From an uncultured Opitutia bacterium (GTDB taxonomy: Bacteria; Verrucomicrobiota; Verrucomicrobiia; Opitutales; Opitutaceae), in NCBI GenBank assembly GCA_903855985.1, contig CAIOAO010000064.1:1-64000 (forward strand): a DNA stretch of 64,000 nucleotides, written 5' to 3'. The notes under the pieces are model-generated. The model saw only the letters and a list, made by a program, of their open reading frames with translations, ran no database searches and was not told the DNA's origin. Shown here in pieces: positions 12,969 through 63,159 of this stretch (position 1 is the stretch's first letter; every line of letters starts with the position of its first letter). Both the position numbers and the translations under genes were made by a program.

Positions 12969-13613
12969 TTAAACCAGCCGGAATTCCAGCGTCTCCAGCT
13001 CGTTCATGTTGAACGGAGCACTGGCGAGGAGTTCCTGCAGCTTCACCAGCGCGGCCGCCAGATCCGGGGCCTCGAACACCGCGGCGCCGTCGTCGCTGTC
13101 ATGGACGTTGATCGCCCAGGGCGTGGCGGCGTGACCGGTTTCATAGAGTGAGCCGTAGAGATAGTTTCCCGGCAGCCCAGGGTGCGGACCCGCGCCGGGC
13201 ACGAGAAAGAGGCTGTGAATGAGGTCGTGCACCGGTGTGCCGTCATGCTTGCGGTGGTGGACCGGCTTGCCCGCGACCTGGATCCGGCGGGCTTCCGCCC
13301 GGACGCGGCGGTCCGCCGGCAGCGACTGCACATAACGGTCGAAAATGCCGGCGTTGCGCTCGAGATGCTCGGGATTCAGCCGGCCCTGGATCACCTCCTC
13401 GAGGTTCGAGGCGTGAAACGACGGGAGCTTCGTCAGCGAGCGCGCGGTGACATGCCCGTCCTTGTGGTCCGCATCGGCATACGCCTGGTGCGTGGCATAG
13501 AGGCGCTTTATCGCGTCTTGGTAAGCCGGCGTGCCCGGCACCGCCCCGATCGGGCTCTGCTCAATCTTGTCCAATACCGCGTGATCAAACTGTTCGTTGG
13601 GGTCGTGGGGCAT
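12969..13613 (-). CDS. hypothetical protein
   Basis: Likely start MPHDPNEQ at 13613 (longer ORF to 13691); codon-consistent ORF in line with neighbours. Confidence 0.6.
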   Translation of the reverse strand: MPHDPNEQFDHAVLDKIEQSPIGAVPGTPAYQDAIKRLYATHQAYADADHKDGHVTARSLTKLPSFHASNLEEVIQGRLNPEHLERNAGIFDRYVQSLPADRRVRAEARRIQVAGKPVHHRKHDGTPVHDLIHSLFLVPGAGPHPGLPGNYLYGSLYETGHAATPWAINVHDSDDGAAVFEAPDLAAALVKLQELLASAPFNMNELETLEFRLV

Positions 13614-13683
13614 GGGGAGGGGTGACAGACAAACGCACCGGAACGGGAAAGTCCAAGTGTAACCACCGGCGATCTTCCGACCC

Positions 13684-13706
13684 AGTGTCACCTATTGGGT
13701 TACACT
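13684..13706. promoter_or_regulatory. putative operator palindrome AGTGTCACC-TATTG-GGTTACACT, plus upstream half-site AGTGTAACC at 13656-13664
   Basis: Inverted repeat with one mismatch; near-identical to reverse complement of 28818-28848. Confidence 0.75.
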
Positions 13707-13770: not shown

Positions 13771-14676
13771 ATGCCCGCCCCCTCGCGCATCGTTGATTCC
13801 CACCAGCACGTCCGCTGGCACCAGCGCGACGAACACGGCCTCGTCGCCGACCTCGATGCCCACGGCATCGGCTACGCCTGGCTCCTCACCTGGCAGCTCG
13901 GCCCCGTCGAGCAGTCGCCCGAGCACGCCAACTACCTCAACCCCGCGCTCACCCTGCCCGACGGCTCGCACCCGGGCATCCCGCTCGCCGAGTTGATCGC
14001 CGTGCGCACCCTCTACCCCCAGCGCTTCGTCGTCGGCTACTGCCCGCACCCACTCTGGCCCAGCGCCCCGCAGCTGCTCGAGGCGGCGCACCGCATGCAT
14101 GACGTCCGCATCTGTGGCGAATGGAAGTTCCGCGTGCCCTTCGACGATCCTCGCTGCCTCGCCATCTTCCACATGGCGGGAAAGCTGAAACTCCCCGTCG
14201 TGCTGCACCTCGACGTCCAGTACCTGCCCGACTCCGTCACCGGTGCGCCCGTCTATCAGCGCATGTGGTACGGCGGCAACGTCGGCGCCTTGGAACGCGC
14301 GCTCACCGCCTGCCCGGAGACGGTCTTCATCGGCCACGCGCCCGGGTTCTGGCGCGAGATCAGCGGCGACGCCGACACGAGTCCCAGCCAGTACCCGCAC
14401 TCGCCCGTGACGCCCGGCGGCCGGCTGATGCCGCTCTTCGACCGCCATCCCAACCTCTACGCCGACCTGTCCGCCGGTTCCGGCCGCACCGCCCTCGCGC
14501 GCGACCCGGCCCACGCCGTGCAGTTCCTCACGCGCTACGCCGACCGCCTGCTCTTCGGCCGCGACTACTACGGCACCGAGCTGCACACGTTCCTGCAGTC
14601 GCAACCGCTCAGCACCGACGTCGTGGAGAAAATCTACTGGCGCAACGCCGAGCGCCTCGTCGCCCCGCCGCGCTGA
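13771..14676 (+). CDS. TIM-barrel amidohydrolase family protein
   Basis: IVDSHQHVRW N-terminal metal motif; LPVVLHLD, FIGHAPGFW, LLFGRDYY. Confidence 0.85.
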   Translation: MPAPSRIVDSHQHVRWHQRDEHGLVADLDAHGIGYAWLLTWQLGPVEQSPEHANYLNPALTLPDGSHPGIPLAELIAVRTLYPQRFVVGYCPHPLWPSAPQLLEAAHRMHDVRICGEWKFRVPFDDPRCLAIFHMAGKLKLPVVLHLDVQYLPDSVTGAPVYQRMWYGGNVGALERALTACPETVFIGHAPGFWREISGDADTSPSQYPHSPVTPGGRLMPLFDRHPNLYADLSAGSGRTALARDPAHAVQFLTRYADRLLFGRDYYGTELHTFLQSQPLSTDVVEKIYWRNAERLVAPPR

Positions 14677-27747: not shown

Positions 27748-28737
27748 TCAGTCCCAGATATCCCGCCAGTTCATCGGGTACTTGCTCAGCTCGTTGAGCG
27801 CCTTCATTTCGTCGGCGCTCAGCCGGTAACCCGCGGCGCCGAGCGCGTCCTGCAACTGGGCCGGGGTGTTGGCGCCGATGATGGGCGCGGTGATCACGGG
27901 ATTCGTCAGCAGCCACGCGAGGGCGGTCTGGGCGACCGTCTTGCCGTGCGACTTGCCGATGGCGTCGAGTTGCTCGATCAAGGCGAAGCCCTGCGCGTTG
28001 GCGTATTTCTTGCCGATGTCCGAGGCGCGGACGCTCGCGACGTTCACGCCGCGGCGGTATTTGCCGGTGAGGAACCCGCCCGCGAGCGGTGAATACGGAA
28101 TCACGCCGAGCCCGTAGTTCCGGCAGAGCGGCCGCGGCTCCGTCTCGAACAAGGACCGCTCCATCAGCGAATAGTCCGGCTGGTAGGACTCGAAGCGCGC
28201 ATAGCCGTGCTTTTCGCTCGCCCACAGGGCCTCGAGCAGCCGCCACGCCGGGTAGTTGGACGCGCCGAGGACGCGCACCTTGCCGGTCTTCACCAACTGC
28301 GTGAGTCCGTCGAGCGTCTCCGCGATCGGCACCTTCAGGTCGGCCGAATGGGTCTGGTAAAGGTCAATGTAGTCCGTCTGCAGCCGCCGCAGTGAGTCCG
28401 CGCAGGCCCGCGGCACGCGGTCGCGCGCCAGGCCCTCGCCGCCCGGACCGTCGGCCATGCGGCCGCGGAGCTTCGTGGCAATGATCAGCTTCGACCGGTT
28501 GCCGCGCGCCTTCATCCACCGGCCGATGATCTCCTCGGTGCGCCCCGCGCCGGCCATGCCATCCGGTCCCCACGTCGTGTAGATGTCCGCCGTGTCGATG
28601 AAGTTGCCGCCGGCGGCGACATACGCGTCCATCACGGCGAACGACGTCTGCTCATCCGCGGTCCACCCGAACTGCATGGTGCCAAGGCAGAGCTCGGTGA
28701 CGTTGAGTTCGCTGCGGCCGAGTTTGCGAAGGTGCAT
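27748..28737 (-). CDS. aldo/keto reductase
   Basis: MHLRKLGRSELNVTELCLGTMQFGW; DYIDLYQTHSAD; start at 28737 excludes upstream operator region. Confidence 0.9.
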   Translation of the reverse strand: MHLRKLGRSELNVTELCLGTMQFGWTADEQTSFAVMDAYVAAGGNFIDTADIYTTWGPDGMAGAGRTEEIIGRWMKARGNRSKLIIATKLRGRMADGPGGEGLARDRVPRACADSLRRLQTDYIDLYQTHSADLKVPIAETLDGLTQLVKTGKVRVLGASNYPAWRLLEALWASEKHGYARFESYQPDYSLMERSLFETEPRPLCRNYGLGVIPYSPLAGGFLTGKYRRGVNVASVRASDIGKKYANAQGFALIEQLDAIGKSHGKTVAQTALAWLLTNPVITAPIIGANTPAQLQDALGAAGYRLSADEMKALNELSKYPMNWRDIWD

Positions 28738-28817
28738 GCCGGCATCGAAGCACGTCCCGCGCCGCTGGCGAGCCTCCGGTCGCCATCCTATTCCCGGCAG
28801 GCTGAATCCTCCACCCC

Positions 28818-28848
28818 ATCCAGTGTAACCCAATAGGTTACACTGGAT
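28818..28848. promoter_or_regulatory. putative operator: perfect 13-bp palindrome ATCCAGTGTAACC-CAATA-GGTTACACTGGAT
   Basis: Perfect arms read directly; repeated at 13684-13706. Confidence 0.8.
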
Positions 28849-28851
28849 CGA

Positions 28852-28873
28852 GGGGGGGGGGGGGGGGGGGGGG
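28852..28873 (+). repeat. 22-nt homopolymeric G tract
   Basis: Uninterrupted G run read directly. Confidence 0.95.
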
Positions 28874-28931
28874 CGGCTGGCCCCAAAATAGCTGGTCGCG
28901 ACCCAGCCCCGCCACCAATCTGCCCGCCGCC

Positions 28932-29954
28932 ATGCCCCTTTCCCCCTACAAGGTGTCCATCGACGACTTCCGCCGTTTCCGTCGCGAGGGCTACGTGGTC
29001 ATCCCCGGCCTCGTCCCGGCCGCCGATATCGCGGAGCTGCGCGCCCACACCGAGGACCTGATGCAGGGCCGGCTGCCGGAACAGCACCCCGACACGCCCG
29101 AGGCCGACCGCCTCCCGCGCCCCGCCGACCATCTTTCGCCGCTCGAGAAGGCCCAGGCCGTCGCCCGCATCCACATGCTGCACCGCCAGGTCCCGCTGCA
29201 CGAACGCTACCTGCTGCACCCGCGCGTGCTCGACGTGCTCGAGACGCTGATCGGCCCCGATGTCTTCGCGTTGCAGACGATGCTGTTTCTCAAGCCACCC
29301 GGTTCCCAGGGCCAGGGCTGGCACCAGGACACGTTCTACATTCCCACCCACCCGGCGACGCTCTGCGGCGCGTGGATCGCGATCGACGACTGCGACGAAT
29401 ACAACGGCGCGATGTGGATGGCCGTGGGCAGCCACGCCGAGCCGGTCTACCCGCCACCCGCGCCCGAGCCGTGGTATGGCGACCGCCAGCTGGCCGGCGT
29501 GCCGGAAGTCGCGAGCGTCAGCGACACGGACGACGCCCGCAACCAGCTCACCCCGATCGCCAACCGCTACCCGCAGGTGCTCGTGCCGGCGAAGGCGGGC
29601 GACGTCGTGTTCTTCAACGGCCACATTCTCCACCGCAGCAAGCAGAACGTCACCCCGGACCGCTTCCGCCGCTCCTTCGTGAGCCACTACTGCAACGCCC
29701 GCTCCTTCACGCAGTGGGGCGCCATCACCGGCCCCAAGGCGCCGAAGCAGGATCCCGTGACGCTGATGAGCAACTCCTCGCACATCCTCGCGCGCGGCGA
29801 CACCCACCTGCCCTACGCCCAGCCCCGCTTCGGCACACCCTGCGCCGCGCTCGAGGATCCCGCCGTGCGGCGCAAAAAGCACCGCACCATCCCCGCCGTC
29901 CTCGGCAACGCCGCCTCGGGGGATATGGAAGTGAAGTCCACCGCCCCGTACTGA
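28932..29954 (+). CDS. phytanoyl-CoA dioxygenase (PhyH) family protein
   Basis: FRREGYVVIPGLVPAADIAELRAHTEDLM; GQGWHQDTFY; LHRSKQN. Confidence 0.88.
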   Translation: MPLSPYKVSIDDFRRFRREGYVVIPGLVPAADIAELRAHTEDLMQGRLPEQHPDTPEADRLPRPADHLSPLEKAQAVARIHMLHRQVPLHERYLLHPRVLDVLETLIGPDVFALQTMLFLKPPGSQGQGWHQDTFYIPTHPATLCGAWIAIDDCDEYNGAMWMAVGSHAEPVYPPPAPEPWYGDRQLAGVPEVASVSDTDDARNQLTPIANRYPQVLVPAKAGDVVFFNGHILHRSKQNVTPDRFRRSFVSHYCNARSFTQWGAITGPKAPKQDPVTLMSNSSHILARGDTHLPYAQPRFGTPCAALEDPAVRRKKHRTIPAVLGNAASGDMEVKSTAPY

Positions 29955-35897: not shown

Positions 35898-36629
35898 ATG
35901 ATCGAAGTCACCGGACTCATTAAGCGCTATGGCGCGTTCACGGCGGTGAAGGAGCTCTCCTTCACCGTGCGGCCGGGCGAGGTGCTCGGGCTCGTCGGTC
36001 CCAACGGCGCGGGCAAAACCACCACGCTGCGCTGCCTCGCCGGCATCATCCCCGCCACCGCCGGCACCATCCACATCGCCGGCCAGGACCTCACCGCCGA
36101 CCCGGTGGCCGCGAAGCGTTCCCTGGCGTTCTTCCCCGACGAGCCGCGGCTGTTCGATTACCTGACCGTGCGGCAGCACCTCGCGTTTGTCGCCCGCATC
36201 TACGGCGTCGCCCACCACGAGGACATCGCGCAGCCGCTGCTCGAGGAACTCGAGATCGCCGACAAGGCCGACCAGCTCCCCGGCGAACTCTCGCGCGGCA
36301 TGAAGCAGAAGCTCGCCATCGCCTGCGGCCTGCTGCACGCGCCGTCGGTGATGTTCTTCGACGAGCCGCTCACCGGGCTCGACCCGCTCGGCATCCGCCG
36401 GATGAAGGACTCGATCCTCAAGCGCGCCCGCGCCGGCGCCACCGTCGTGCTCAGCTCGCACCTCTTGCACCTGCTCGAGGAGGTCTGCTCGCACGTGCTC
36501 ATCCTGAAAAAAGGCGAGAAGATCGCCGACGGCACGCTCGCCGACGTGTCGGCGCGCTTCGCGAACGGCGAGGCCAACGTCAGCCTCGAGGAAATTTTCA
36601 TCCGCGCCACCGGCGGCACGGAAAGCTGA
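35898..36629 (+). CDS. ABC transporter ATP-binding protein
   Basis: GLVGPNGAGKTTTLR Walker A; ELSRGMKQKLAIACGLLHAPSVMFFDEP signature/Walker B. Confidence 0.95.
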   Translation: MIEVTGLIKRYGAFTAVKELSFTVRPGEVLGLVGPNGAGKTTTLRCLAGIIPATAGTIHIAGQDLTADPVAAKRSLAFFPDEPRLFDYLTVRQHLAFVARIYGVAHHEDIAQPLLEELEIADKADQLPGELSRGMKQKLAIACGLLHAPSVMFFDEPLTGLDPLGIRRMKDSILKRARAGATVVLSSHLLHLLEEVCSHVLILKKGEKIADGTLADVSARFANGEANVSLEEIFIRATGGTES

Positions 36630-61500: not shown

Positions 61501-61569
61501 GACCCAGGCCCGCCGGGCTTCCCGCGTAACACCTAAAACTTAACCCTGAGCCGCGCGCCCGGGCGCGGC

Positions 61570-63159
61570 TCACGCCTGATGCGCCATCGGGTTCGGTGCG
61601 AGCGCCGCACTGTCGCGCGGCCGGCGGTAGTTCACGCCGAGCCGGTCGAACCGTGCGAGGAGCAGGTTGAGCCGGGTGCGGAAATCCGCGAAATCCTTCC
61701 GCGCCACCGGGGACCACACCACCTCGGCCAGCGCGCTGAGGCGCGGATACGCCCGGCGTTCCACCACGCTCAGGCTCGGCATGCGCTCGCGCCAGAGCTG
61801 GCCCTGCGCCCCGAGCACGCGGGCGTGATACGCCGGCTCGACGCCGGTGAGGGGGTCGAACGAGTAGACTTTCTCCAGCGTGGTGTGCGCCCCGATCTGG
61901 CCGCCTTCCTCCTCGGCGGTGCCCTCGGTGTAGTCGAAATACGTGTGCGACGTCGGTGCCATCACCACGTCGTGCCCGAGCCGGGCCGCCTCGATCGCCC
62001 ACTTCACGTCGCGCCACGCCATCATGGCCGCGCCCGGAGCGAGCCCGCCTTCCTGGATCTCGTCCCAGCCGATGAGCCGGCGGCCGTGCTTCGCCAGGAA
62101 ATTCTCCGTGCGGCGGATGAACCAGCTTTGCAACTCGTGGCCGTTCTTCAGCCCGTTCGCCGCCATAAACGCCCGTGCCGTGGGCGAGGCCTCCCACTGC
62201 TCCTTCATCGCCTCGTCGCCGCCCACGTGGATGAACTTGGAGGGAAACAGCGCCAGCACCTCGGTGAACACGTTGTCCAGGAACTCGAGGGTTTCCGGCT
62301 TCGGCGCATATGTCTCAGGGAAAATCGTCCAGCGCGGCTGCACCACCGGCGCGTAGCCGGGGGCGTCGGTGTTGCCAAGGTGCGGATAGGCCGCGAGCGC
62401 CGCCGAGCTGTGACCCGGCACCTCGATCTCCGGCACCACCGTGATGAAACGCTCCGCCGCATACGCCACGACGTCGCGGATCTCGTCCTGCGTGTAGAAC
62501 CCGCCGTGCGGGATGCCGTCGGACACCGGCTCGTTGTCCACCTTTGGCGTCGCCGCCCGCCACGCGCCCACGCTCGTGAGCTTCGGGTATTTTTTGATTT
62601 CGATGCGCCAGCCCTGGTCGTCCACGAGGTGCCACTGGAAAACGTTCAGTTTGTGCAGCGCGAGCGTGTCGAGGTACTTCTTCACCTCGGCCACCGGCGA
62701 GAAATGCCGGCTCACATCCAGCAGCGAGCCGCGCCAGCCGAACCGCGGCCGGTCCTCGATCTCCACCGCCGCGACCGTCGTCGCCCCGCCGCCCGCCCGC
62801 CAGCCGAAGCGCTCGATGTCCGGCGGCAGCAGCTGCCGCAGCGACTGCATCCCGTAAAACACCCCCGCCGCGCCGCCGCCCCGGATCGTCACGCCCTTGG
62901 CTGTGACCGAAAGCGTGTAGCCTTCCCCGCCGAGTTTCGGGGTCAGGGCCGGGTCAATGCCGAGCGCAATGACGCTGCCGCCCGCGGGCGCCGTCTCCGC
63001 CACCGTCACCGCGAGCAACTTGGCCAGCTGCGCCGCCACGCCGCGCAGCGCCGCCTCACCCCCGGTTGCGACCACGGTCTGACCCGTGAGGGCAAAAGGC
63101 GCCCCGCCCGTGAGGCGGCACGAAACTGGAATCGGGATGATGCTCGGGGTCTGGCTCAT
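61570..63159 (-). CDS. beta-N-acetylhexosaminidase, GH20
   Basis: FGWRGSLLDVSRHFSPVAEVKKYLDTLALHKLNVFQWHLVDDQGWRIEIKKYP; FIHVGGDEAMKEQW. Confidence 0.95.
   Translation of the reverse strand: MSQTPSIIPIPVSCRLTGGAPFALTGQTVVATGGEAALRGVAAQLAKLLAVTVAETAPAGGSVIALGIDPALTPKLGGEGYTLSVTAKGVTIRGGGAAGVFYGMQSLRQLLPPDIERFGWRAGGGATTVAAVEIEDRPRFGWRGSLLDVSRHFSPVAEVKKYLDTLALHKLNVFQWHLVDDQGWRIEIKKYPKLTSVGAWRAATPKVDNEPVSDGIPHGGFYTQDEIRDVVAYAAERFITVVPEIEVPGHSSAALAAYPHLGNTDAPGYAPVVQPRWTIFPETYAPKPETLEFLDNVFTEVLALFPSKFIHVGGDEAMKEQWEASPTARAFMAANGLKNGHELQSWFIRRTENFLAKHGRRLIGWDEIQEGGLAPGAAMMAWRDVKWAIEAARLGHDVVMAPTSHTYFDYTEGTAEEEGGQIGAHTTLEKVYSFDPLTGVEPAYHARVLGAQGQLWRERMPSLSVVERRAYPRLSALAEVVWSPVARKDFADFRTRLNLLLARFDRLGVNYRRPRDSAALAPNPMAHQA

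Follow-up and report, generated by a model that had tools for sequence, protein, structure and literature searches.

What recognizes a long perfect palindrome between two divergent genes, and does it act there as an operator? The question is raised by positions 28818–28848 of a 64,000-nt stretch (the window) of contig CAIOAO010000064.1 from an uncultured Opitutia bacterium (assembly GCA_903855985.1; G000 below), where ATCCAGTGTAACC-CAATA-GGTTACACTGGAT forms a perfect inverted repeat with 13-bp arms and a 5-nt spacer. The original prediction had taken this repeat, located in the divergent region of an aldo/keto reductase (AKR) and a PhyH dioxygenase gene, for an operator of glycan catabolism bound by an unlinked regulator. 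Its symmetry and position were confirmed: the core is centered at 28833, and its distance to the start codons is 96 nt for AKR (28737, minus strand) and 99 nt for PhyH (28932), where ~95 and ~100 nt had been estimated.

The palindrome and its second copy in the window

The arms of this repeat are the longest of all palindromes in the window. A search allowing up to three mismatches returned two matches in the window, against 0.00 expected. The recurrence of the motif at 13684–13706, already pointed out in the original prediction, is real, but the copy is not identical, a mismatch sitting in one arm (TGTCACC). The same prediction had described an asymmetric 5-bp spacer. CAATA is better read as the center of an odd 19-bp palindrome with the consensus TGTNACNY-AWT-RNGTNACA, because the central base of any odd palindrome is necessarily asymmetric; the Y/R pair flanking the AWT center is complementary in most relatives. 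The coordinates of all features are compiled in Table 1.

Table 1. Palindromes, candidate partner gene and neighboring genes; positions refer to the window unless a contig is given
Feature	Position	Strand	Remarks
Perfect 13-bp-arm palindrome, 19-bp core TGTAACCCAATAGGTTACA at 28824–28842	28818..28848	.	1 of 20 genomic copies; orthologous copies in G003 and G005
Palindrome-containing segment between two blocks alignable with G004/G008	28786..28881	.	same interval 18–24 bp only in G008 and G004
Second copy, one mismatch (AGTGTCACCTATTGGGTTACACT), core 13686–13704	13684..13706	.	orthologous copies in G003 (L106) and G005 (L122)
Extra half-site AGTGTAACC near second copy	13656..13664	+	
118-aa XRE/Cro-type HTH protein	G000:C74:250228-250581		other contig than window
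Aldo/keto reductase, palindrome neighbor (context only)	27748..28737	-	Pfam PF00248, E 1.6e-76
PhyH-family dioxygenase, palindrome neighbor (context only)	28932..29954	+	Pfam PF05721, E 1.1e-38
Second-copy neighbor (context only)	12969..13613	-	no Pfam match at 1e-6
Amidohydrolase-family protein, second-copy neighbor (context only)	13771..14676	+	Pfam PF04909, E 7.7e-12

Two further long palindromes of the window, at 35944–35967 (11-bp arms) and 61547–61572 (10-bp arms), are unrelated in sequence to the AAT-centered family. A run of 22 G (28852–28873) adjoins the repeat, and the sister species G003 and G005 carry shorter mixed G/C runs there; the run could be real or a sequencing artefact.

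Dispersed copies in the genome and in relatives

A genome-wide scan, suggested with the original prediction, identified 20 sites with up to three mismatches in the 2.94-Mb G000 genome and none for the reversed-pattern control. Across 57 relatives, the distribution of this motif type was patchy: most site positions were common to G003 and G005, a few to G011, and one locus to G032, a member of another genus. The more general pattern TGTNACNNAATNNGTNACA had exact matches in 28 of the 57 genomes, with up to 67 copies and controls at or near 0.

The expectation of conservation in related promoters held for the two sister species, but the corresponding promoters lacked the sites in those further members of the genus that were compared. 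At the AKR/PhyH locus, the congeners G008 and G004 have kept both genes and the adjoining conserved CCAAAATAGCTGGTCGC, with 18–24 bp in place of the 96-bp palindrome segment, and the kup/enoyl-CoA hydratase site is absent from six other genus members, most of which retain the conserved blocks on both sides. As congeners keep the conserved flanks without the palindrome, such segments come or go without disturbing promoter-proximal sequence; their clade-specific presence and absence would be compatible with either gain or loss.

Genes bordering the sites

According to a gene model based on codon usage trained on the window, every copy in G000 is intergenic rather than lying inside coding regions, the outcome that had been named as speaking against an operator; in relatives, a few copies fall inside predicted ORFs. 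The sites border hemL/xerC (convergent), kup/enoyl-CoA hydratase, monomeric IDH, mnmA, tyrA/aroA, wecG/ABC-F, HNH/DEAD helicase and dus (some of these names being assigned from sequence alone), and no coherent target function was found among the genes bordering G000 sites. Nor was a promoter bias detected in ten genomes, whose 86 site-bearing intergenic regions comprised 30 divergent, 42 tandem and 14 convergent ones vs. a length-weighted expectation of 27, 51 and 22% (chi-square p = 0.19). With neither promoter bias nor related neighbors, the data lend no support to promoter operators of one pathway. Sites between convergent genes, and congeners without the palindrome, likewise leave the proposed role in glycan catabolism unsupported.

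Sites are bordered by PhyH genes in three cases, an association with p = 0.02 that is post hoc and assumes 2,600 genes, but 41 of the 44 PhyH matches in G000 are not beside a site. Given the unrelated neighbor functions and this 3/44 proportion, a glycan or PhyH regulon was rejected. The 44 PhyH-family matches occur in a genome of 2.9 Mb; 13 of 14 control genomes have none.

A small HTH protein as candidate partner

At only one locus are sites common to several genera: two palindromes there bracket an ORF of 118 aa, which lies between dus and a gene for an aminotransferase. The product of this ORF stays below all cut-offs of the Pfam and NCBIfam profiles, with sub-cut-off similarity to HTH domains (YdaS, CI-like, HigA). 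An AlphaFold model (pLDDT 84, pTM 0.56) combines an XRE-type HTH core with a long N-terminal helix, and the best Foldseek matches of the model are small XRE/Cro-type domains with weak E-values; a TxRPGxxTPLWN motif is also present. Neither the Pfam/NCBIfam scans nor the AlphaFold model searched with Foldseek revealed a catalytic domain, so that the protein alone cannot explain the dispersal of copies. Encoded on another contig than the window, it is the likely partner that the idea of an unlinked regulator called for, its binding being predicted.

All genomes with at least two G000-type motifs carry a homolog of this protein, and diverged homologs in other genomes are likewise bracketed by palindromes, of the same architecture and different sequence. 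In a further set of 80 homologous genes from public genomes, nearly all Opitutae, 66 had AAT-centered palindromes within 500 bp, mostly on both sides of the gene, compared with 6 of 260 control segments (Fisher 7e-49, a statistic that ignores relatedness). Conversely, 16 of 17 protein-bearing genomes had at least five copies of the general pattern vs. 4 of 40 protein-free ones. Those four, G008 (27 copies), G031 (9), G015 (8) and G028 (5), have no detected HTH gene; their repeats may have been orphaned by loss of the gene, or divergent paralogs may have been missed, or the assemblies may have gaps.

The profile of the protein matched 6 of 12 genomes listed for the family to which the window belongs, plus one weak case elsewhere in a class sample of 113. 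One query of phage and plasmid records returned no homolog, and a phage or plasmid origin of the system was rejected on these grounds. No partner gene beside the HTH gene recurs across the family. Loci encoding 70–80% identical proteins often differ in their gene surroundings, implying that the gene relocates or is exchanged. Two HTH proteins from an Akkermansiaceae MAG (L189) and an Opitutia MAG (L198) are ~94% identical and have the same palindrome layout, with no neighbor genes in common in the stretches compared; transfer between families or a mis-binned contig are possible explanations. The sole Y1 (RAYT-like) match of G000 lies at C100:37396-37725 (L090, L164), on a contig without a palindrome.

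Joint variation of recognition helix and half-site

Comparison of the homologs with their palindromes revealed that helix and half-site vary together. PRQRVH mostly occurs with TGTCAC, (S/T)RQRLH mostly with TGTCATC and (D/S/Q)RQ(T/Q/A) mostly with TGTCAAC or CGTCAAC, and PRQR(L/I/V)(N/Q/H) is found with TGTAAC, PKQR with AGTAAC and PPQR with TTTCAC or TTTAAC. Residues 80, 81, 83, 85, 86 and 93 stand out in mutual information with the half-site, the first five being in or beside the recognition helix predicted by the AlphaFold model (81–90). Tree-based counts gave two to six independent changes for most helix/half-site traits; with so few, the phylogenetic independence of the covariation is weak, and a tree-based pair test cannot reach significance.

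Stronger than this covariation is the association of TTTCACNTAATANGTGAAA, the PPQR-type pattern, with PPQR-type proteins. G003, the sister species with a second HTH paralog, holds 28 copies of that paralog's palindrome and G014 holds 36, both encoding PPQR-type proteins, vs. two in G000, three in G005, a single copy in both G027 and G033, and zero in the remaining 51 genomes. G011 has a PPQR-type helix too, but belongs to the TGTAACC clade, with some TATAACC/GGTTATA sites. The tyrA/aroA locus contains a TTTCAC palindrome in G003 and the TGTAACC type in G000 and G005. On the proposed reading, the 118-aa protein would pair with TGTAACCCAATAGGTTACA, and the PPQR paralog of G003 with TTTCACTTAATAAGTGAAA.

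Spacing and arms of neighboring palindromes

Center-to-center distances between neighboring palindromes peaked at about 46, 55.5, 66, 80, 89, 100, 111, 122 and 135 bp, i.e. with a period close to 11 bp. After removal of near-duplicates, this phasing was evident in each class on its own, with p < 0.0005 for the sites that adjoin HTH genes (n = 40) and p = 0.0085 for the dispersed ones (n = 24). The spacers themselves are not conserved: those of G014 and G003 palindrome pairs have at most one 15-bp match in common, and between the L191 and L207 loci the HTH gene and four palindromes are conserved, with spacers and flanks close to unrelated. Helical phasing over unrelated spacers is most simply read as placement on the same face of double-stranded DNA, which might allow cooperative dimers or short loops. 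Non-homologous spacers also mean that there is no larger repeated unit, and a composite transposon was rejected. Nor do the clean edges at which the L191/L207 homology ends prove transposition, because only the gene and its palindromes are conserved there.

Beyond the core, complementarity of the outer arms exceeded within-genome shuffles in a pooled set that counts sister-species orthologs more than once; by genome, single positions did so in G014 and G003, and none in G017 or G030. This may reflect a hairpin or cruciform constraint or correction by template switching, though not as a general feature. Clusters of G017 (e.g. L266, L270, L271) are arrays of four palindromes with near-identical spacing of about 46-55-46 bp; in several of them, the middle spacer contains a short stretch that resembles GAGGG. 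In the closed genomes G014:C1 and G030:C1, the distance of sites to the cognate HTH gene tends to be smaller than expected by chance (z about −1.5 in G014 and about −2.5 for the CTAATRGG type of G030; computed by hand from coordinates, post hoc).

Discussion

We consider it probable (roughly 0.6) that this palindrome belongs to a family of dispersed intergenic repeats of REP-like character, recognized by a small, unlinked XRE/Cro-type protein whose own gene is bracketed by such palindromes. The computed basis comprises the dispersed copies, the bracketed HTH gene, the helix/half-site covariation, the paralog with its own palindrome copies, the clade-specific sites beside conserved flanks and the helical phasing of neighbors. 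Against this reading count the copy numbers (20–67, low for REPs), the four genomes that have 5–27 copies and no detected HTH gene, and the mostly orthologous positions of the sites in three sister species, which would be expected of a regulon too.

Mechanistically, a homodimer of the HTH protein would bind the 19-bp core as double-stranded DNA, and neighboring dimers on the same helical face might touch, perhaps via the long N-terminal helix, and thereby bridge the DNA or fold it into short loops. The HTH gene may be autoregulated via the sites that bracket it; at most dispersed sites, binding would be architectural or serve the repeat itself, with no particular gene being switched. Dispersal of the copies could be due to some recombinase or slippage process.

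The main rival is an autoregulated XRE repressor or activator of the ordinary kind. Its regulon would take in about 20 or more promoters, and its operators would be the palindromes, paired for cooperative or looping repression, as with lambda CI and GalR. Like XRE/Cro/CI repressors and the controller (C) proteins of restriction-modification systems, the protein has an HTH core fold, a palindromic operator of similar size and predicted binding sites beside its own gene, upstream and around it; phased pairs, orthologous sites in sister species and the three PhyH genes also fit. It differs from such repressors in falling below the profile cut-offs, in its long N-terminal helix and TxRPGxxTPLWN motif, and in having tens of dispersed sites without promoter bias, 14 of 86 regions being convergent. 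Since this likeness comes without promoter concentration or target coherence, and since the HTH gene has sites on both sides and congeners without the site keep the adjoining conserved sequence, we retain the regulon as the main rival and regard it as rather unlikely. One repressor with many short binding sites over a genome is also known from mycobacteriophage stoperators (PMC9283540), but these are asymmetric and reside in the phage genome, unlike the chromosomal palindromes found here, whose partner has no homolog in the phage records.

The other explanations are less credible. Small dedicated proteins with tens of short palindromes on the chromosome are familiar from MatP/matS, Noc and SlmA, and the present family, with about 20–60 intergenic palindromes in a genome, some in phased pairs, and a small protein dedicated to them, resembles such chromosome-organizing sites; the lack of exact TTTCAC-type sites between 2.54 and 4.66 Mb in closed genome G014 would fit as well. 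By GC skew, however, the terminus of G014 is at about 4.35 Mb and that gap does not lie symmetrically around it, G030 has no common ori- or ter-specific zone, and many genomes of the same family lack the system. We regard this reading as improbable; in the two closed genomes, sites are uneven and GC skew gave no clean ori/ter pattern. A RAYT (Y1 transposase) as partner, of which the repeats would be the REP elements and beside which the HTH gene would be a bystander, is very improbable and already largely refuted. Dispersal and a bracketed gene resemble REPs (PMC2817692), RAYT-like genes are common in the family and G000 has one Y1_Tnp match, but Y1 genes occur with and without the motif, an AAT-centered palindrome lies within about 1 kb of 1 of 30 Y1 loci (and that one is of another family), the sites lack the GTAG tag, and palindrome type follows the HTH protein. 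RNA hairpins (terminators or sites of an RNA-binding protein) or chance repeats hardly come into consideration: outer-arm complementarity above shuffles in part of the data would suit the former, but no Rfam family was found at the sites, central-base orientation relative to genes looks random, many sites are in divergent regions and the phasing points to double-stranded DNA, while controls near 0 speak against chance.

The closest parallel remains REP/REPIN-RAYT (TnpAREP, 'REPtrons'; PMC2817692, PMC3733652, PMC8266576), with which the present family shares dispersed, partly clustered intergenic palindromes with non-homologous spacers, a bracketed cognate gene, several protein-palindrome types per genome, co-variation of protein and palindrome, and complementary changes in the arms. 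Unlike there, the partner is a small XRE/Cro-type HTH protein instead of an HUH/Y1 transposase (PF01797), flank alignments and consensus have no GTAG (or CGTC) tag, the 19-bp palindrome is odd with an AWT center, neighbors are helically phased and copy number is lower. Likeness to REP-RAYT without HUH transposase or GTAG tag thus suggests that these are REP-like repeats of a variant kind, whose partner is a DNA-binding protein. GTAG REPs, which are another repeat, are reported to be abundant in Opitutus terrae (PMC3733652). In the open-licence literature we found no description of palindromes with an HTH partner, or of such repeats in Opitutaceae/Verrucomicrobia, which is weak evidence of absence.

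More tentatively, and at somewhat less than even odds, the repeats may represent an undescribed class of dispersed bacterial repeat, namely helically phased short palindromes kept by tiny transposase-free DNA-binding proteins that bridge copies, with several distinct protein-palindrome pairs within one family: a selfish 'binding-site plus binder' element or a site-specific DNA-bridging system. For dispersed palindromes in bacteria, the usual explanation invokes a partner resembling a transposase. Here, a small DNA binder without a recognized catalytic domain is apparently the partner, and adjacent sites stay in helical phase even though their spacers are unrelated. With roughly 80 natural protein-palindrome pairs, a ready data set for a DNA-recognition code is at hand, and two questions become testable: whether binding alone can maintain a repeat family, and which role pairs of phased sites play on a chromosome.
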